This document shows, piece after piece, positions 487 to 9,352 of a stretch of DNA of 41,728 nucleotides (within the stretch, counting starts at the first letter, position 1; each line of letters starts with the position of its first letter). The notes below the pieces were generated by a model, which worked only from the letters and a program-made list of their open reading frames with translations, searched no databases and had not been told where the DNA came from. Source of the DNA: a virus; IMG/VR virus record IMGVR_UViG_3300027608_001240, positions 1-41,728 of that record. One strand, written 5' to 3'. A program made the translations under genes and the position numbers.

Positions 487-3400
487 TTATTTATAAGTTG
501 AGCCAGCTGACTTCAGCTTGGACATAGTTGCACGTGGTTTGTAAGAACCAGTGCTTTGACCAGTTTTACGACCAGCTGGTTTCTTTTCTTTTTTCTTCAT
601 ATCAGCTGCTGTTTCATCAGCACCTTCTGGATCAACATAATCAGCGCCATATGAACGACCTTTAATTATGGTCTTTCCATCTGGACCTGGAGTATACTCA
701 AGTAAGTGGTCAGCTTCTTCTTTACGAAGAAGTTCAAAGTCATGCCCGTCAACCTTACCATTCTTGTTCTTGTCAAGTTTGTGCTGTTTACCAATTAGTT
801 TTTCTTCTAATGATTGTAAAAACTCTTTATATGATTTCATATTTTCCTCTTTTACTTTTTTAATTTTTGATACTGTCTTAGGTGCTGGTTCCCATTTTTC
901 TTCATGGGGTGTGTCACCAGCGTGGTTTACTTTATCTACGTTAACACCTTTCTGCGCAGTGGCTTCACTACGTAGTGCGCGACCAATTGCTACGTTTTTT
1001 TCTCTAGCAGTTTTATGATCAGTGTCAGGAACTGGATTATTAAGTTTATAACGAGCACCACGAGATGCGTCCATCATATTTTTCATTGTTTTGTTTTGTT
1101 TAGCCTGATCAGATTTCTCGTCAAGAACTTCTTCATTAGTTGGCATGCCATTGATTGGCTTCTTAGTTGCTTTATATGCTTTGTGCTCAGGAGTACCTTT
1201 AATATACTTGCGATCAGGTACTGGAGCAACTGGAGTTGGATCTCTCACTTCGTCACCTTTACGGCGATATGCTGATGCTGGCTTTTCGTAGTAGCCCTCA
1301 TTAACTTCAGACTCAGAATACAAGTAGTCAGCTGCAGTTTGAATATAGTCAGTGGCAAGAGTAATCTTAGATTGAACCCATTCTGGCAAATCAGTTTCTG
1401 GCTTTAGACAATCTTTAATCATTTCAGCACAACGTGTTAGCGTTGCCAATTGATTCAAAGCCATGTCGCCTTCATAACCATACTCTTGTTCGTCTTTTTC
1501 TTCCATATTAAGTTCTTCAGTTCTAGTTCTACGACCAGCGAAGTGATGCACACCTCTATTTTTCAACTCAGAACGAGATGCATCATATTCATATGGATTC
1601 TTATGTGCGTTAGATGGGGTATTGCCAAGAGTTTTAACTTTATTGTCAAGTGTTCCTGTTTTCAATTTACCAGCAACTTTATTTGTTGCTCTGTATAAAC
1701 CAGTGTCGCCTTTACCACCATCATCAGCACGACCAGATTTAATATTTTTATTGATATATGATTTTAGAGTTTTTTGATCCAGTTCATGAATATGTTCTAC
1801 TTCGTCTTTTGCTTCTTTGAAGTGAACTACATTACCTTGAACTTTACCTTTACCATGTTCCTTAGAAGCACGATTGGCCAAATCTTCACCAGACATTAAA
1901 GTAGTTCCTTTCGGATTAAGAGTGCTATACCCATGAACTATTGAACGCATTCTTACTTCAGCGTGACCATTGGGATGAAAAGTTGCTTTACCATCATAGT
2001 CTTTTGCCATTTTACGAGCATTTTTATGATGCTCTGAAGATTTATCGTAACCTTCTTCTAATTCAACTTCTTCTTTGACTGGTTTCTTTTTATTAAGTTG
2101 ATCCATTGCACGTTGAGCCAATGAACGAGCAGCATCCATTCCAGTACGATTTGGATTATTAGGTTTCTTAAAATTAGATTTGTATGGTCCATCAAATGGA
2201 ACATCATCTTTCTTAGATTCTTCATTTGTTTGAGATGCTTTTATTGCGTCTGCAGTTGGCGCACCTTTGCTTCCAGGTTTACGCATGCGCTCACCAGAAC
2301 CATTCTCGATACGTTTACGCTTGGCGTGAATGTTATCCCAAAGACCACGTTCACCTTCTTGAATTTCTTCTTTAACTGGCTGATTCATATTCATTTGTTT
2401 ATCATTCTCGCCATTAAAGAATTTAAATCCTTTAATCTTTTTATTCATAGTAGTATCCTTTGATGTTGAACCTGATGGAGCAGAAGTTGTAGTATTCATA
2501 GCGTCAGCACCAGCGATGTTACCTTGAAGAGTACCTTCTTTCATTTGACCATGCTTCTTTAAATCATTGTCAAATTGTTTGTTTGTGGCTTTGTTAATAC
2601 CTTTGAAACGCTTGTCGCCTTTTGCATAATTGCCAGCAGCATCCGCAGCTTTTGCATCTGCGCCAGCAGCAGTTTTATATTTACCTAGAAGATCAGTGGA
2701 TAGTTCATCGATCTGAACTTCTTCTTTGACACCACGAGATTTGGCAGCCATGAATGCGCCAATAGCCATCTTGCGACGTTCATCTTTAGATTTATTATTA
2801 AAGCGAGGGTGTGTTGAAGAAATAAAATCTTTAACCCAAGCAGCAGCACCCATATCAGCACGCAGTTCTTCTTGAACAACTTCTTCTTTAATATTCATAC
2901 CTTTACGCACATCGTTATACATGGCGTCCTTGTGTTCTGGCTTCATCTTTGATGGAGCACCTTTATGGAATTCTGTTTTGTTACCAGAAGCAGCATGTTC
3001 GCGCATTTTACTTGCAGAGATACCAGTAGTACCTTCAGCATCTGGATCACGTTCGCCAGAAGAATGCACAGTAATCTTTTTAAAGTTATAGTGGCCATGA
3101 GCAGCGTCTTTGCCATTATATTTATGAAGTAGATTATGCATCTCTTCATGGCGATCAGAACCAGCAACTACGTGTAGATGTGTTGCTCCAGCAGCATGAG
3201 CAGCTGCAGCATGGTGAAGGATAGTTGGAGATTCTTTGCTGGCAGAACTTACCTTAGTTCCAGGGAATGCGTTCTTAGCGTGAGCAACTTTTTGTTCACC
3301 AGTTAATGGGTTTTTCTTAGCATCTTGGCTATGAGAAACAACAAGACTATGACTTGCGCCATGTTCTTTAGCAACTGAATGTAGTTTGTTAACTACTGCT

Positions 3401-3585
3401 TCGTGACCTGACGTGATTGGGTTCATACGACCAAATGCTAACACGTGGTGCTTTTCAGAACCATGTCCACCTTCATCTTTTTCTTCTTTCATACAGCTGT
3501 CATCCTCGTAAGGTTTAGTACCTTTTTTGCGTTTGTACCCAGTCCAGCAGATACCTTTTTCTTGGAGATCTTTGTAGTTAATCAT
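487..3585 (-). CDS. Modular 1032-aa protein: adenylyltransferase-like domain plus protease-site-punctuated modules (capsid-internal polyprotein candidate)
   Basis: The N-terminus (MINYKDLQEK) resembles a capsid-targeting peptide. Residues about 47-215 form a cytidylyl/adenylyltransferase-like domain with GRMNPITSGH (the T/HxGH site) near 52-61 and GISASKMRE (ISSTxxR-type motif) near 188-196. The remaining about 800 residues are short, Lys/Glu-rich modules: WVKDFISSTHPRF near 250; DELSTDLLGKY near 293 with a second copy (HELDQKTLKSY) near 600; LWDNIHAKRKRIENGSGERM near 415-434; LPEWVQSKITLATDYI near 733; a second targeting-like peptide MKSYKEFLQSLEE at 916-928; and an EF-hand-like loop DKNKNGKVDGHD near 938-949. 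Modules are separated by (I/L/V)-x-E sites: VQE 237-239, IDE 292-294, IQE|G 408-410, LEE|G 509-511, IHE 599-601, VNE|G 761-763, LDE 821-823, LLE 961-963. These match the T4 gp21 protease preference. Processing into pieces is inferred. Confidence 0.75.
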   Translation of the reverse strand: MINYKDLQEKGICWTGYKRKKGTKPYEDDSCMKEEKDEGGHGSEKHHVLAFGRMNPITSGHEAVVNKLHSVAKEHGASHSLVVSHSQDAKKNPLTGEQKVAHAKNAFPGTKVSSASKESPTILHHAAAAHAAGATHLHVVAGSDRHEEMHNLLHKYNGKDAAHGHYNFKKITVHSSGERDPDAEGTTGISASKMREHAASGNKTEFHKGAPSKMKPEHKDAMYNDVRKGMNIKEEVVQEELRADMGAAAWVKDFISSTHPRFNNKSKDERRKMAIGAFMAAKSRGVKEEVQIDELSTDLLGKYKTAAGADAKAADAAGNYAKGDKRFKGINKATNKQFDNDLKKHGQMKEGTLQGNIAGADAMNTTTSAPSGSTSKDTTMNKKIKGFKFFNGENDKQMNMNQPVKEEIQEGERGLWDNIHAKRKRIENGSGERMRKPGSKGAPTADAIKASQTNEESKKDDVPFDGPYKSNFKKPNNPNRTGMDAARSLAQRAMDQLNKKKPVKEEVELEEGYDKSSEHHKNARKMAKDYDGKATFHPNGHAEVRMRSIVHGYSTLNPKGTTLMSGEDLANRASKEHGKGKVQGNVVHFKEAKDEVEHIHELDQKTLKSYINKNIKSGRADDGGKGDTGLYRATNKVAGKLKTGTLDNKVKTLGNTPSNAHKNPYEYDASRSELKNRGVHHFAGRRTRTEELNMEEKDEQEYGYEGDMALNQLATLTRCAEMIKDCLKPETDLPEWVQSKITLATDYIQTAADYLYSESEVNEGYYEKPASAYRRKGDEVRDPTPVAPVPDRKYIKGTPEHKAYKATKKPINGMPTNEEVLDEKSDQAKQNKTMKNMMDASRGARYKLNNPVPDTDHKTAREKNVAIGRALRSEATAQKGVNVDKVNHAGDTPHEEKWEPAPKTVSKIKKVKEENMKSYKEFLQSLEEKLIGKQHKLDKNKNGKVDGHDFELLRKEEADHLLEYTPGPDGKTIIKGRSYGADYVDPEGADETAADMKKKEKKPAGRKTGQSTGSYKPRATMSKLKSAGSTYK
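488..495 (-). promoter_or_regulatory. T4-type late promoter TATAAATA
   Basis: The minus strand reads TATAAATA, the exact T4 late -10 consensus, overlapping the stop of the gene ending at 487 and about 30 bases before the ATG of the 178-459 gene. Only this box is needed by the gp55-type sigma factor in T4. Confidence 0.75.
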
Positions 3586-3586
3586 A

Positions 3587-3871
3587 TTAGCAATTCCACT
3601 TTCTTAGTGCCAATGCTTTACGACTTGGTTCGCCATTTGGTTTCTTCATTGGACCTTCCATGCCACCCATACGTGCACAGAAAGACTTACGGCGATTAGC
3701 AGCTTTGCTACCAGCCTTTAACTTAGATGGTGGAGTAGTAACTGGTGCTTGTAGATTAGCACCTTTAGCATTATATGCGTCACGACCCTTTTGAGTCAAC
3801 CCACCAGTAGAACTTTTATGTCCTTTACCATCGACTGCATATTCAACAAGATATTCTTTAAATGTTAACAT
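3587..3871 (-). CDS. DUF6321-like protein with capsid-targeting N-terminus
   Basis: A 94-residue basic protein. The first ten residues, MLTFKEYLVE, match the pattern of the T4 internal-protein capsid-targeting sequence, with a predicted cut after LVE (residue 10). The rest carries a motif set I associate with DUF6321: GGLTQKGRDAYNAK, PSKLKAGSKAANRRKSFCAR, MGGMEGPMKKPNGEPSRKAL and a C-terminal RKWNC. That family is known from phages and bacteria but has no established function; its high Arg/Lys content would suit nucleic-acid binding inside a head. One base separates it from the next gene downstream and one from the gene upstream, so it belongs to one operon. A sigma70-like match (TTGACT-18-TATAAT) lies inside it. 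Confidence 0.75.
   Translation of the reverse strand: MLTFKEYLVEYAVDGKGHKSSTGGLTQKGRDAYNAKGANLQAPVTTPPSKLKAGSKAANRRKSFCARMGGMEGPMKKPNGEPSRKALALRKWNC
3770..3799 (-). promoter_or_regulatory. Possible intragenic sigma70 promoter (18-bp spacing)
   Basis: The minus strand has TTGACT (3799-3794), 18 bases, then TATAAT (3775-3770), inside the DUF6321-like gene and upstream of the 1032-aa gene. The match is good, but the site is within coding sequence and the spacer differs from the 17 bases seen elsewhere in this window. Confidence 0.3.
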
Positions 3872-3872
3872 A

Positions 3873-4916
3873 TTATACAGCCTTTCCTGCGGATTTTAGT
3901 GAACTTAGTGGATCACTCTGTGAATCAAACTTGTGTGCTTGAGAAGCAAACTTCTTACCGTTATGATAGAAGTGAACCGAACCACCACTTGATTTAACTG
4001 AAAGATTCTTATGGTCTTTTAGGATATGCTCATGATCTTCGCTTGGGTTACTAGCATGGTGTTGAACACCCTTAGCAGTTTTGTAAGTAGTATGCTTGAT
4101 AAAGGTATGACCCTTTTCTTGAGCAGGTGTTTTATGAGCATGAAGGACTTCACGGATATGCTTAACTACGTGCTCATGATTACCAGAATCTAAATGGTGT
4201 TGCAGTTCAGCAGCATGACTGTGAGCAACTTTATGTAATAGTGCTTTGTTGCGTTCTTTAACATCAGCGTGCATCTTAGGATCTGCTTTGGCAGCTTCTT
4301 TACGTTGGTCTTTATTTTTACCAACCAACTGAGGATGCGCTTTAATAATCGCAGCTTTGTGCGCAGCGAAATGCTCTTTGGCTTTTGATCCACCAGATTC
4401 CATACCAAGACTTGATGATGGAATATTCTTGCTAGAGTTATCGCTAACTTTTAAACTTACGCCATGGTGAGTTACTTTACCAGTCTTAGGATGCTTAGTA
4501 GAAACATAAACATCAGAAGAATCTTCTTTCTGAGTTGCTTTGTGACCAGTTACCTTTTCTGTATCTCCAGGTTTGGAAGTATGAGTAACCGCATGGACTG
4601 CATGACCTGGATGAGTAGACTCAATATGCTTTTTAATATGATCAGCAGCAGACTTAGCATTGGTATCAATGCGCTTATAGTCAGCTGGGTGGATTGCTTT
4701 CTTTAAACGATCATGAGTTTGTACAGGAGTTTCGCCTTGTTCGTTAACATGCTTCTCCATATGTTTGCCATTATTAAGATGCTTGCCAGTTAGAATCTCG
4801 TGTAGAACACCCTTAGTGTTATTTGAAACACCACCTTCTTTAGAAGCATCATCTGCTGCTTCTGTTAGTTCTTGGAAATAAGTTTCTTCAACTATGAATG
4901 TTTTAAAGGATTTCAT
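3873..4916 (-). CDS. Capsid-targeted protein with possible PD-(D/E)xK nuclease-like core
   Basis: 347 residues. It begins MKSFKTFIVE, a capsid-targeting-like peptide with an IVE cut site at residue 10 and a second site, LTE|A, at 17-19. The body is His- and Lys-rich. It has a helix with LHEIL (E40), then SSDVYV (D135) and HGVSLK (S154-L-K156). An acidic residue, an Asp-containing strand and an S-x-K strand in this order resemble a PD-(D/E)xK nuclease core, but with Ser in place of the usual Asp/Glu, so this is a hypothesis. I recall similar hypothetical proteins in marine T4-like phages. The start overlaps the upstream ligase-like gene by four bases (ATGA type), which suggests the two proteins are made together. 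Function is otherwise unknown. Confidence 0.65.
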   Translation of the reverse strand: MKSFKTFIVEETYFQELTEAADDASKEGGVSNNTKGVLHEILTGKHLNNGKHMEKHVNEQGETPVQTHDRLKKAIHPADYKRIDTNAKSAADHIKKHIESTHPGHAVHAVTHTSKPGDTEKVTGHKATQKEDSSDVYVSTKHPKTGKVTHHGVSLKVSDNSSKNIPSSSLGMESGGSKAKEHFAAHKAAIIKAHPQLVGKNKDQRKEAAKADPKMHADVKERNKALLHKVAHSHAAELQHHLDSGNHEHVVKHIREVLHAHKTPAQEKGHTFIKHTTYKTAKGVQHHASNPSEDHEHILKDHKNLSVKSSGGSVHFYHNGKKFASQAHKFDSQSDPLSSLKSAGKAV

Positions 4917-6136
4917 TTACGCACCTTTAGTAAGTTAGATCTTGCGAACTCAGCACGATTTACCAACTTAGAAGGCTCATGTTTACCATTGTGTTCGTGG
5001 TTAATAACGAAACCTTCTGGCTTGGATTCTTTACCTTCGATATGGTGTTCATAATTGCTATGACCACTTTCTAGAGACTTAACCAAAGAGTTCTTTGCAG
5101 CAGCAAGATGGTTATGTGCAGTCAATACATGTTCGTAATGACTCTTATTCTTTTCTACGTGATCAACTTCTTCTTTACCCTTGGCACGTTTTGCGTCTTG
5201 GGACTTTTCAGTCTTAACACCAGCAACTTGTTTAGCGTGGTGTGTTTCAAGATGGGCTTTGAAATCTTTTACGTTTGGAGTAGTGTTATTGCGAACAGTT
5301 GAGTTAATGTAAGTGGCTAGATGACCATGATCACCACTATGATCTGCGTGAACTGCTTTGTACATCTTGTCGCCATGAGTATCATGAACTGCTTTGGCAG
5401 CGTTCAGATGCTTATGGAACTCATCTTGATTTGCTTGAGAGTGAGACGCTTTGCTAGTATCGTAGCTGGCATCGTGATGGTGAACATCAGGATGATCTTT
5501 AAACTCATGATGATCAACTTCGTGGTGAGCAGACATTGATTGAATGTCTTTACCGTGGTATTGAGTATGAACTGCTACACCTACTTTTGCTTTTGCAGCT
5601 TTCTTGGCTTCATCGCCAGAAGCAGTATAGGTAATAGTGTTTGGCGTAAAAGATGCTTTGCCAGTTTTCTTATCGTGCTTAACATCACCTTCAGAGTGCA
5701 TAATGTCACCTTGATAAACTTTACCCTTTGGAGTAACTTTAGGTAAGTGATGTAACGCAGCTTTTAATTTAGCAGCAAGACCTGGAGCATGGCCATGGTT
5801 CTTATCGATATCAGCATCAGTGTGATTAATCTTTGGGTCTTTGTTGAAAGCAGATTTAGAAGCAACAAAGAACTTACCAGTCTTAGGATGAGAACCGAAA
5901 ACTACAGCTGGTGAACCATCATACTTTGTAGTAAGATTAGCATTATTCTTACCAGACTTCATGTGCTCATGAGCATGAGACAAAGCACCATGAGCATGTT
6001 CAAAGCCATCGTGACCATGCATTAATGGACGATCTTCAGGATGCGTAATGTGCTTGAGTTTAGTACCTTCTTGAGTATCTGATCCATGACCCAATTTATC
6101 TTTTTCTTCTTTTAAGTATGTAGTAAATCTTTTCAT
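4913..6136 (-). CDS. Capsid-targeted nucleotidyltransferase/ligase-like protein (DUF6267-like)
   Basis: 407 residues, strikingly His-rich. It begins MKRFTTYLKE, a capsid-targeting-like peptide with an LKE|E cut site at residue 10. It then shows signs of the covalent nucleotidyltransferase (DNA/RNA ligase, capping enzyme) fold: K71-Y-D-G74 as motif I (KxDG), GKFFVASKSAFNK shortly after, YQGDIM near 141-146 in a motif III-like place, EGFVI at 374-378 as motif IV, and KLV at 390-392 as motif V. The set matches, from memory, a cyanophage family named DUF6267. An activity that joins or adenylylates nucleic acids or proteins is inferred, and no assay is known to me. An early-type promoter lies just upstream (6156-6184), making this the first gene of the capsid-cargo operon. 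Confidence 0.7.
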   Translation of the reverse strand: MKRFTTYLKEEKDKLGHGSDTQEGTKLKHITHPEDRPLMHGHDGFEHAHGALSHAHEHMKSGKNNANLTTKYDGSPAVVFGSHPKTGKFFVASKSAFNKDPKINHTDADIDKNHGHAPGLAAKLKAALHHLPKVTPKGKVYQGDIMHSEGDVKHDKKTGKASFTPNTITYTASGDEAKKAAKAKVGVAVHTQYHGKDIQSMSAHHEVDHHEFKDHPDVHHHDASYDTSKASHSQANQDEFHKHLNAAKAVHDTHGDKMYKAVHADHSGDHGHLATYINSTVRNNTTPNVKDFKAHLETHHAKQVAGVKTEKSQDAKRAKGKEEVDHVEKNKSHYEHVLTAHNHLAAAKNSLVKSLESGHSNYEHHIEGKESKPEGFVINHEHNGKHEPSKLVNRAEFARSNLLKVRK

Positions 6137-6155
6137 TTTCTTATCCTATTAACTT

Positions 6156-6184
6156 ATTATACTATATCTTGCAATAAAAGTAAA
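6156..6184 (-). promoter_or_regulatory. Early promoter, TTTACT-17-TATAAT
   Basis: -35 TTTACT at 6184-6179, 17-base spacer, -10 TATAAT at 6161-6156. It belongs to a five-member family sharing the longer context TCGCTTTACTTT before the spacer. It drives the ligase-like gene starting at 6136. Confidence 0.8.
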
Positions 6185-6199
6185 GCGATATTTGTATTC

Positions 6200-6216
6200 C
6201 CCTCAACTTTTGAGGG
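6200..6216 (-). terminator. Short hairpin after the Dps-like gene
   Basis: CCCTCAA (6200-6206) pairs with TTGAGGG (6210-6216) around a 3-nt loop, directly after the stop codon at 6217. No U-tract follows, and the next early promoter starts 16 bases later. Confidence 0.5.
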
Positions 6217-6663
6217 TTATCCTATTTTCTTAGCAGAAGCACGTAAGAACCAAGCATGCTTCTGATGAGTATCTATTCTATCAGCTATAAAATTACAAAC
6301 ACCTTGTTGCTTTTCTGAGTTAGCAATAGTGAACACTTTATTTAGGCTGGCCAAGACTTCTTCGTTTGCAGCAATAAGACATACGAATATATCTTTTAGT
6401 AACTCAACACGAGTAGTTTCTTCTTCTAGTGTTTTATACTTGTAAAGTTCATCAATGCTTACTGGAGCATAGTCGTCTAACTTACGTAGAAGTTCAGCGA
6501 TTGGATCTACAGAATTATAAACATCAGTATAAAGGTCACCAAAGAAATCGTGATACTGAGTAAACTCAATACCCTCAATATTCCAGTGAAACTGATGCGC
6601 TTTGTAATACATTACAGTAGCATTTGCCAGCAATACTTTAATTGCTGTTGTTAACTCATTCAT
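6217..6663 (-). CDS. Dps-like ferritin-fold protein
   Basis: 148 residues, within the usual Dps length. The motif HQFHWNIEG followed by a His-containing helix (QYHDFFGDLY) and VDPIAE reproduces the Dps ferroxidase pattern: a HW pair, then a His, with Asp and Glu at +15 and +19 from it. The position equivalent to E. coli Dps Asp67 (+4) is Gly, with Asp at +5. From memory this also occurs in phage relatives, so iron oxidation may be altered. The family binds iron and DNA and protects DNA from oxidative damage. The start overlaps the stop of the upstream adenylyltransferase-like gene (ATGA). It has no capsid-targeting peptide. Whether it acts in the infected cell or the virion is unknown. Confidence 0.8.
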   Translation of the reverse strand: MNELTTAIKVLLANATVMYYKAHQFHWNIEGIEFTQYHDFFGDLYTDVYNSVDPIAELLRKLDDYAPVSIDELYKYKTLEEETTRVELLKDIFVCLIAANEEVLASLNKVFTIANSEKQQGVCNFIADRIDTHQKHAWFLRASAKKIG

Positions 6664-7523
6664 TGCACAACTCCAGTATTCGAAAACGCATCAAATGTTC
6701 TAGAAGTAAAATCTTGTGGAGCCAAACCAGCTGGCTGCTCAGTATTTCTAACAGTAGATTTAAAAGACTTCAGCTTTTTCTTTTCTACTTTCTTCTCTAC
6801 TAATTTAACATTCTGAATCCACTTGCTGACTAATTTGCCAGTAGATTCTTTTAGCAATAGGTGATTAGAACCACGCTTGACAATTTCATATTGTTCGCCA
6901 TCGGATTCTACTTGCTCACCAACATTAAAGATTTCGCCACGGAAATATTGTTCACGCAGATCGTCTTTAACTAACTTAATTTCTTCTTTGATTGGCTCAA
7001 GTCCAGAACCAATTCTAATATCATTCATCAATCTACGAGAATCAATATCACGTATTGCTGATGGTAGATTCTTTTTAAAATCTTCGTATAAACCTTTGAT
7101 CGCATAATTACGAGTAGCATCTTCGCTATCTGGATCTTTGTCCATGGCTGATATGACTGTAGCTTCCTTTAGAGATTTCTTCATGGAAGCTACTTTATCT
7201 GCGCTGGTAACAATGATAACATTGCGATAGGTTTCTTTTAGTTTAGCAACCACTTCACTTATATTGTCAGAGTAAGTATTGAACTGCGTGTTCGGAAACA
7301 ACGTATTCAAATACTGTAATTTCTTTTCTACAATTAAGGGATTCTTTTTCGCATCGCTAGAATCGGATGCATAAATGGCGTAGCTGGCATTCTTTTGCTC
7401 AGCTACAGATTTGACCGCCTTGATTAGAAGTTCATGTCCGATAGTCGGAGGGTTAAACTTCGAACAGGCTAGAACTATCGTTTTACTCGGTAGTTCTCTG
7501 ATTAGTTGTCTATAATCTTTCAT
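6660..7523 (-). CDS. Adenylyltransferase-like protein with capsid-targeting N-terminus and C-terminal SH3/KOW-like module
   Basis: 287 residues. It starts MKDYRQLIRE, a targeting-like peptide with an IRE site at residue 10. The domain that follows has KFNPPTIGH, the T/HxGH nucleotide-binding signature of nicotinate and pantetheine-phosphate adenylyltransferases, and SDAKKNPL shared with the 1032-aa protein (DAKKNPL). The second catalytic motif (ISSTxxR; GISASKMR in the paralogue) is not recognisable: after DKDPDSEDATR the sequence continues NYAIKG. The domain may therefore be inactive or altered. Residues about 190-245 (LREQYFRGEIFNVGEQV, RGSNHLLL, KWIQNV) resemble a small beta-barrel module of other T4-like virion proteins. 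A CTAAATA late box lies about 31 bases upstream of the ATG. Confidence 0.7.
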   Translation of the reverse strand: MKDYRQLIRELPSKTIVLACSKFNPPTIGHELLIKAVKSVAEQKNASYAIYASDSSDAKKNPLIVEKKLQYLNTLFPNTQFNTYSDNISEVVAKLKETYRNVIIVTSADKVASMKKSLKEATVISAMDKDPDSEDATRNYAIKGLYEDFKKNLPSAIRDIDSRRLMNDIRIGSGLEPIKEEIKLVKDDLREQYFRGEIFNVGEQVESDGEQYEIVKRGSNHLLLKESTGKLVSKWIQNVKLVEKKVEKKKLKSFKSTVRNTEQPAGLAPQDFTSRTFDAFSNTGVVQ

Positions 7524-8653: not shown

Positions 8654-8660
8654 TATTTAG
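8654..8660 (-). promoter_or_regulatory. Variant late promoter CTAAATA
   Basis: The minus strand reads CTAAATA, overlapping the stop of the metalloprotease-like gene at 8657 and 22 bases before the ATG at 8631. The spacing suits a late promoter with a very short leader. Confidence 0.5.
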
Positions 8661-9352
8661 GTCATGCGATTATACTTGCGATCCCATTTACCGATCTGGT
8701 CTATAATCTTACGAGTGGCTATGTTGTTTCTTAAATCGTAGTTAAACGTCTTTAAGAAATAGTGAAGGGTAGACGAATCTCGTTTTGTCTTATAACGATT
8801 TAGCAGGACGCTAATATCTACCTTTGGTCTGCGCATTTTAAAATCTAGATACACACAATGCGCATATGCTTGTATCTCATCGAACTCAGAAAGGTATGCT
8901 CTCTGTTCATCCTTCTTGGCGATTCCTACTTTCTTGTATGGAACTACGTAAGTGCTCCACTCATCACCACGTCTATTGAACTGCATGAAGTGAATCAACT
9001 CATGCATCAAAGTCTGTAATAGGCGCATCTTGAATGATGCCCAAGAGGTTTGAGTGAAAGGGAATGTGTTAAACTTTTCAGTATAGATATGAAGAGAACA
9101 TTGACGTTTGTCTGGATTATATTCCCCACCAATCGCCACGTAGTTTTCAGTCCACTTTGCTTTGGACTTCTCTTTCTTCCACTCTATTTTGGTTCGCCAT
9201 TTTTTAACATAATTAGATAAGCCATCTTTATCATTTACATAGAGATCTAGATCTCTCCATACTTTTGCTGGAATGAGTTTTGCTCTAAATGGACGCTCAT
9301 CAAAATTGAGTAAGTCCATCCAGTCGTAAGTTACATTCTCTAGGAAATTCAT
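8657..9352 (-). CDS. Zinc metallopeptidase-like (HExxH) phage protein
   Basis: 231 residues. The key motif is LMHELIHFMQF, an HExxH zinc site (HELIH) in a helix, followed about 45 residues later by EFDEIQAYAH, whose acidic residues could supply the third ligand. The layout recalls SprT-like and other small metallopeptidases. The N-terminus is rich in Trp, Lys and Asp (VTYDWMDLLNFDERPF) and I do not recognise it. Related proteins occur, from memory, as hypothetical proteins in marine T4-like phages. Substrate and timing are unknown. A 20-base gap separates it from the kinase-like gene upstream, so it is probably co-transcribed with it. Confidence 0.6.
   Translation of the reverse strand: MNFLENVTYDWMDLLNFDERPFRAKLIPAKVWRDLDLYVNDKDGLSNYVKKWRTKIEWKKEKSKAKWTENYVAIGGEYNPDKRQCSLHIYTEKFNTFPFTQTSWASFKMRLLQTLMHELIHFMQFNRRGDEWSTYVVPYKKVGIAKKDEQRAYLSEFDEIQAYAHCVYLDFKMRRPKVDISVLLNRYKTKRDSSTLHYFLKTFNYDLRNNIATRKIIDQIGKWDRKYNRMT

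Follow-up and report, generated by a model that had tools for sequence, protein, structure and literature searches.

A T4 internal-protein-type leader shared by four unrelated proteins of an uncultured T4-like virus, and its predicted role in loading the phage head

The DNA analysed here, IMG/VR virus record IMGVR_UViG_3300027608_001240, positions 1 to 41,728 (41,728 nucleotides; hereafter the window), is a whole contig and represents a 41.7-kb fragment of the genome of an uncultured T4-like virus of bacteria, whose DNA polymerase shares about 55% identity with cyanomyovirus polymerases. Four of its genes encode proteins of different families that start with a common ten-residue leader. We consider it very probable (about 0.86) that this leader targets proteins to the capsid in the way known from the T4 internal proteins; it would be cut by the S77 prohead protease before the proteins are ejected with the DNA. 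In that case the virus probably brings a set of enzymes, already made, into the cell along with its DNA. This reading builds on direct observations of the leader, its conservation, its restriction to certain families, the junctions between protein modules, and the S77 and gp23 genes of relatives.

A preliminary description of the window had reported four open reading frames (ORFs) with the starts MLTFKEYLVE, MKSFKTFIVE, MKRFTTYLKE and MKDYRQLIRE, and we recovered both coordinates and starts exactly. They are listed below (a slash denotes a predicted cut; NMNAT, NMN adenylyltransferase).

3587..3871, minus strand: DUF6321 protein, 94 amino acids, small and basic (net +13); Pfam DUF6321, E=3e-24
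3842..3871, minus strand: leader MLTFKEYLVE of the DUF6321 protein, residues 1-10, recognised by motif, cut predicted after E10
3873..4916, minus strand: 347-amino-acid protein (p347), predicted restriction-endonuclease fold of the PD-(D/E)XK type, from an AlphaFold2 model, Foldseek and alignment
4860..4916, minus strand: leader MKSFKTFIVE of p347 (putative cut after E10) and a second site, LTE19/A20, from a 22-sequence alignment
4913..6136, minus strand: DUF6267 protein, 407 amino acids, with nucleotidyltransferase/ligase-type motifs; Pfam DUF6267, E=4e-105
6107..6136, minus strand: leader MKRFTTYLKE of the DUF6267 protein, residues 1-10, from a 26-sequence alignment
6660..7523, minus strand: cytidylyltransferase/NMNAT-like protein, 287 amino acids; PHROG 3041/395 cytidyltransferase, E=3e-33 and 3e-29
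7494..7523, minus strand: leader MKDYRQLIRE of the 287-residue protein, residues 1-10, recognised by motif and conserved as MK[DN]YRQL[IL][KR]E

We fixed a leader pattern, ^M..[FY]..[FYL][IL].E, from the determinants of T4 internal protein (IP) III. It matches 4 of the 52 window genes, precisely the four named beforehand; with a per-gene chance of about 1.5e-4, the probability of at least 4 matches among 52 is 1.6e-10. At internal positions of proteins, the same pattern occurred 4 times in 12,166. Each of the four leaders has hydrophobic residues at positions 4 and 7 (4/4) and a gp21 site, [IL]-x-E, at residues 8-10 (4/4). A near-complete relative, G001 (164.7 kb, 207 ORFs), contains three matches to the pattern, every one inside the corresponding gene cluster.

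The sample of relatives comprised about 100 loci, retrieved by patterns in which the N-terminus played no part. The leader is present on 210 of their 238 ORFs from the four families (DUF6267, 89/95; DUF6321, 45/53; p347, 31/39; the 287-residue cytidylyltransferase, 45/51) and on none of 137 ORFs from flanking families (Dps, 0/49; p231, 0/64; p93, 0/20; p353, 0/4). Elsewhere in the relatives it was found on 12 of 2787 ORFs, several of which resemble additional cargo. Among 63 distinct leaders, the best-conserved positions, apart from Met1 and the common Lys2, are 10, 4, 8 and 7, with E10 present in 60. Mutagenesis of T4 IPIII assigned residues 4 and 7 to targeting and residues 8 and 10 to processing (PMC9026906). 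The comparison with T4 IPs and gp21 sites suggested in the preliminary description thus finds the leader conserved at the very residues used by IPIII. The conservation of residues 1-10 also supports the predicted start codons.

The leader behaves as a separable element. In 26 DUF6267 sequences, F4, E10, [FY]7 and [LI]8 are all 100% conserved, whereas residues 11-25 are hypervariable in both sequence and length; leaders of different types, MKSFQTYLKE or MLNFKSFLKE, occur within this one family. In the AlphaFold2 model of p347 (pLDDT 83), residues 1-22 are disordered. A 361-residue protein of phage Melnitz, encoded at the syntenic position, aligns with p347 in hhalign over the leader only. Conservation of the p347 leader among 22 sequences is 100% for F4 and 95% each for F7 and E10. 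Further downstream, E19 and A20 of the sequence L17-T-E19/A20 are likewise conserved at 95%, so that the mature protein may begin at residue 20, not 11. A protease site at residue 10 is predicted for all four proteins, and p347 has this second conserved site in addition.

The preliminary description had counted four leader genes and missed a neighbouring fifth one, which encodes a modular polyprotein starting with MINYKDLQE, a nine-residue variant of the leader. Its features are the following.

487..3585, minus strand: modular polyprotein, 1032 amino acids; PHROG 3041, E=6e-57
2875..3465, minus strand: cytidylyltransferase/NMNAT-like module, residues 41-237 of the polyprotein, with GRMNPITSGH and ISASKMR; PHROG 3041
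2221..2355, minus strand: GLWDNIHAKRKR module with EEIQE directly before it, from junction comparison
802..840, minus strand: internal leader-like segment MKSYKEFLQSLEE, polyprotein residues 916-928, conserved in relatives

Behind the leader of the polyprotein come, in this order, a CWTGYK module, the cytidylyltransferase module and a number of short modules with [ILV]-x-E sites between them. In relatives, the cytidylyltransferase module (531 phage records) also occurs as a separate leader gene, starting for example with MLSFKSFLKE. The same is true of the GLWDNIHAKRKR module, for example MLTFKNYLEE/GERGLWDNIHAKRKR. The sequence directly before the GLWDNIHAKRKR module carries [ILVM]-x-E in 14 of 17 distinct contexts, 11 of which are single-gene leaders ending there. 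Other junctions keep [ILVM]-x-E behind differing upstream sequences: those before LSTDLLGKYK in 15/15, KSDQAK in 8/8 and GYYEKPASAYRRKG in 6/6 contexts. The internal segment MKSYKEFLQSLEE is conserved as MK[ST]Y[KN][ED]FLQxL[ED]E before the KLIGKQHKLDKN module and resembles the start of T4 IPI, with the same layout. The claim that T4 IPI-IPIII all begin with MKTYQEFIAE had to be narrowed: it applies to IPII and IPIII (MKTYQEFIAE/A), while IPI begins with MKTFKEF and has its site at residue 19.

DUF6321 provides a similar comparison across genomes. In 26/26 distinct contexts, the residue directly before this module is the Glu of [LIVT]-x-E. T7-like phages of Pelagibacter, Prochlorococcus and Synechococcus are a natural control for the leader: in 5 of 5, S77 is absent, and the first residues of the DUF6321 protein are those of the module, with no leader ahead of them. 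In these T7-like marine phages (L135-L139), DUF6321 genes are next to the scaffold gene or are flanked by scaffold and capsid genes, which suggests, if tentatively, that DUF6321 itself has a function connected with the head.

G001, G002 (a second relative) and cultured relatives encode gp23 and an S77 prohead protease of the gp21 family. Their gp23 proteins carry matching sites, ALFE/AAPTNAVG in G001 and LLTE/APTQAVG in S-CREM2, and gp22 of G001 contains 14 [IL]-x-E sites where 5 are expected. Published mass spectrometry has detected leader-bearing cytidylyltransferase homologues in the virions of four cyanophages: S-SCSM1 ORF91 (MKSFLQFLKE/A; PMC9602691), S-CREM2 ORF154 (MKNFSSFLTE/A; PMC10665884), S-SM1 SSM1_190 (MKKFSAFLNE/A; PMC3037559) and S-SZBM1_140 (MRFRQFIIE/A; PMC9146016). 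The leaderless DUF6267 protein of S-SZBM1 (ORF141) is not among the listed proteome (PMC9146016). The interpretation of the leader as a T4-type targeting sequence is supported by the conserved residues, the restriction to particular families, the S77 and gp23 genes of relatives, and the homologues in virions. In the open-licence PMC literature we found no description of a targeting leader or protease site for these phages.

Two further observations were made in the cyanophages. In small genes of the cluster, a gp21 site is followed by a sequence nearly identical to the gp23 N-arm (L126:10343-11236, L127:8122-8307, L129:27806-28354); for S-CREM2, the sequences are GATGFTGAAAPEGPVAGYDPLM in ORF160, which is listed in the virion proteome, and GADGFTGAAAPGGPNAGFDPVM in gp23. 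S-SCSM1 ORF93 (L127:6627-6836), annotated as a virion protein, has the leader-like sequence RTFKEFLEYIE at its C-terminus.

Several points weigh against this interpretation. Cleavage and ejection are steps that we infer. The window, a fragment of 41.7 kb that does not include the main head genes, has no S77 protease, so that S77 and gp23 are documented for relatives and not directly for the window phage. Some homologues have no leader, namely the DUF6267 proteins of S-SM1, S-RIM2, P-SSM7 and S-SZBM1, and S-SCSM1 ORF90 is a virion protein without it; hence the leader is not the sole route into the virion. The authors of the S-CREM2 study note that contaminants are possible in virion mass spectrometry (PMC10665884). 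Finally, the excess of [ILV]xE in the 1032-residue protein is weak by count (16 versus 10.4 expected by shuffling, p=0.036), although the junction comparison is the stronger test for these sites.

Other explanations of the shared start were considered. The leader might be an uncut helix docking to the scaffold or shell, with E10 serving in helix capping or as a charge. DUF6267 residues 4-14 are indeed predicted to be helical, and targeting and processing are separable in T4, where Asp at position 10 stops processing, not targeting (PMC9026906). This is nevertheless unlikely, as E10 is the best-conserved residue after Met1, [IL]-x-E recurs at module junctions behind unrelated upstream sequence, and DUF6321 of the S77-less phages begins at the junction.

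We regard as more improbable still the idea that the start serves regulation, translation or, as a handle, recombination during gene shuffling, and plays no part in packaging; on this view modules would recombine at the repeated KEEVxxIDE linker. Leaders and linkers do sit at the boundaries of module exchange, but the constraint falls on amino acids 4, 7, 8 and 10, unrelated upstream contexts have only [ILVT]-x-E in common, and leader-bearing homologues occur in virions. Simple descent by duplication, leaving a functionless ancestral remnant, has very little in its favour beyond the location of all the genes in one cluster: their bodies come from different families (DUF6321, DUF6267, cytidylyltransferase and nuclease fold), leader types vary within a single family, and positions 4, 7, 8 and 10 of a start without function would not remain constant while residues 11-25 vary freely.

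If the leader does target proteins to the capsid, its hydrophobic face (residues 4 and 7) would bind the scaffold core, and the prohead would close around the newly made proteins. The S77 protease (gp21) of the prohead would then cut after the Glu of [IL]-x-E (residue 10 or, in p347, residue 19) and free within the head the nuclease-fold, DUF6267 ligase-like, NMNAT-like and small basic DUF6321 proteins. The 1032-residue chain would enter whole, and cuts at [ILV]-x-E would yield an NMNAT-like enzyme as well as several modules that are small and basic. The head contents would be ejected with the DNA and might act prior to phage gene expression.

The preliminary description took the cargo to be enzymes. 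For none of them is this firm: p347, with its nuclease fold, and the cytidylyltransferase module are likely to be enzymes, the evidence for DUF6267 is suggestive, and DUF6321 has no support as one. The best solved structures matched by the p347 model in Foldseek were HinP1I (E=8.7e-4, probability 1.00, TM only 0.29/0.38) and MspI. Invariant residues of p347 are D135, S154, L155 and K156, with Ser in the D/E place of D...(D/E/Q/S)xK; D135...S154-L-K156 presumably agrees with the motif of HinP1I. By sequence, p347 had no match among phage records, and cyanophage proteins of similar fold exist. The 361-residue Melnitz protein and S-SCSM1 ORF90 were tried as homologues of p347, and no sequence homology was detected. 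In DUF6267, the ligase-superfamily motifs KxDG (K71-Y-D73-G74), EGxV (E374-G375-F-V377) and Lys (K390) are present, and K71, D73, G74, E374, G375, V377 and K390 are all invariant. Its best Foldseek matches, the RNA ligases Trl1 (E=0.13) and REL1 (E=0.83), are weak and not significant. Within the DUF6267 protein, [IL]-x-E is modestly depleted (0.9 versus 2.1). Searches of p347, DUF6267 and both cytidylyltransferases against solved structures by sequence gave no significant match.

The cytidylyltransferase module of the polyprotein has the GH and ISxSxxR motifs. The 287-residue protein is without ISxSxxR, and this copy may consequently be inactive, altered or a pseudoenzyme. Roles of the NMNAT-like proteins in NAD+ recycling for a ligase or in anti-NADase defence were considered, with no evidence found for or against them. 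Proteins resembling HAD-type phosphatases also bear the leader in relatives (MQSFLEFLGE and MLTFTSYLSE in L051 and L091; MKSIVEVTSINE in Melnitz, L001:14988-15500), which suggests further enzyme cargo.

All recognisable genes of the window are on the minus strand, and the cargo cluster adjoins a helicase-recombinase-polymerase block. The cluster comprises the 287-residue cytidylyltransferase-like protein, Dps, DUF6267, p347 (which belongs to no sequence family), DUF6321 and the 1032-residue protein. The preliminary description was right that Dps, lying among these genes, lacks the leader; this holds in the window and in all 49 relatives. A conserved 231-residue protein with an HELIH motif and a weak SprT-like match (8657-9352) adjoins the cluster and never has the leader.

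6217..6663, minus strand: Dps/ferritin-like protein without leader; Pfam Ferritin, E=6e-22; leader in 0/49 relatives

The arrangement resembles that of T4 IPI, IPII and IPIII in the ten-residue leader (aromatic residue at 4, F/Y/L at 7, I/L at 8 and E at 10), in its occurrence on unrelated proteins, and in belonging to a T4-like clade with the S77 protease, gp22 and gp23. The T4 IPs, however, are small basic proteins, IPI being a restriction inhibitor, whereas the window leader stands on nuclease-fold, DUF6267 ligase-like and NMNAT-like proteins and has a relative on a polyprotein. The bodies show no homology to IPI, IPII or IPIII; they match DUF6321, DUF6267, cytidylyltransferase or no family. 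The cytidylyltransferase/NMNAT-like virion proteins of cyanomyoviruses (T4-GC190; S-SM1, S-SCSM1, S-CREM2 and S-SZBM1) share the family, neighbourhood and leader, but the papers on them describe virion components whose role is unclear. The polyvalent proteins known from phages and plasmids (PMC5512222) are likewise multi-domain and predicted to enter the cell with DNA; the window modules differ from theirs, are bounded by prohead-protease-type sites and have single-gene leader versions. The prohead scaffold gp22 is also a chain with many [IL]-x-E sites, but the 1032-residue protein has a cytidylyltransferase domain and exchangeable basic modules, and no family match to gp22.

For marine and freshwater T4-like phages (Kyanoviridae and relatives), we lean towards a general scheme of exchangeable virion cargo, in which modules may alternate between single leader genes and polyproteins with the same gp21-type sites, and in which nuclease, ligase-like and NMNAT-like proteins, HAD phosphatases and small basic proteins would be matured in the capsid and co-delivered with the DNA. 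Loading by the leader would explain the recurrent cytidylyltransferases in cyanophage virion proteomes. The DUF6267, DUF6321 and cytidylyltransferase families each have more than 450 phage records, whose annotation reads unknown or auxiliary metabolic gene. If they are injected cargo, NMNAT-like and nuclease-like proteins would be directed at defences or host DNA from time zero, and would not be later-expressed metabolic genes. The leader would provide a simple sequence rule for spotting head-carried proteins in these abundant phages, and the T4 internal-protein mechanism would be extended to polyprotein cargo.

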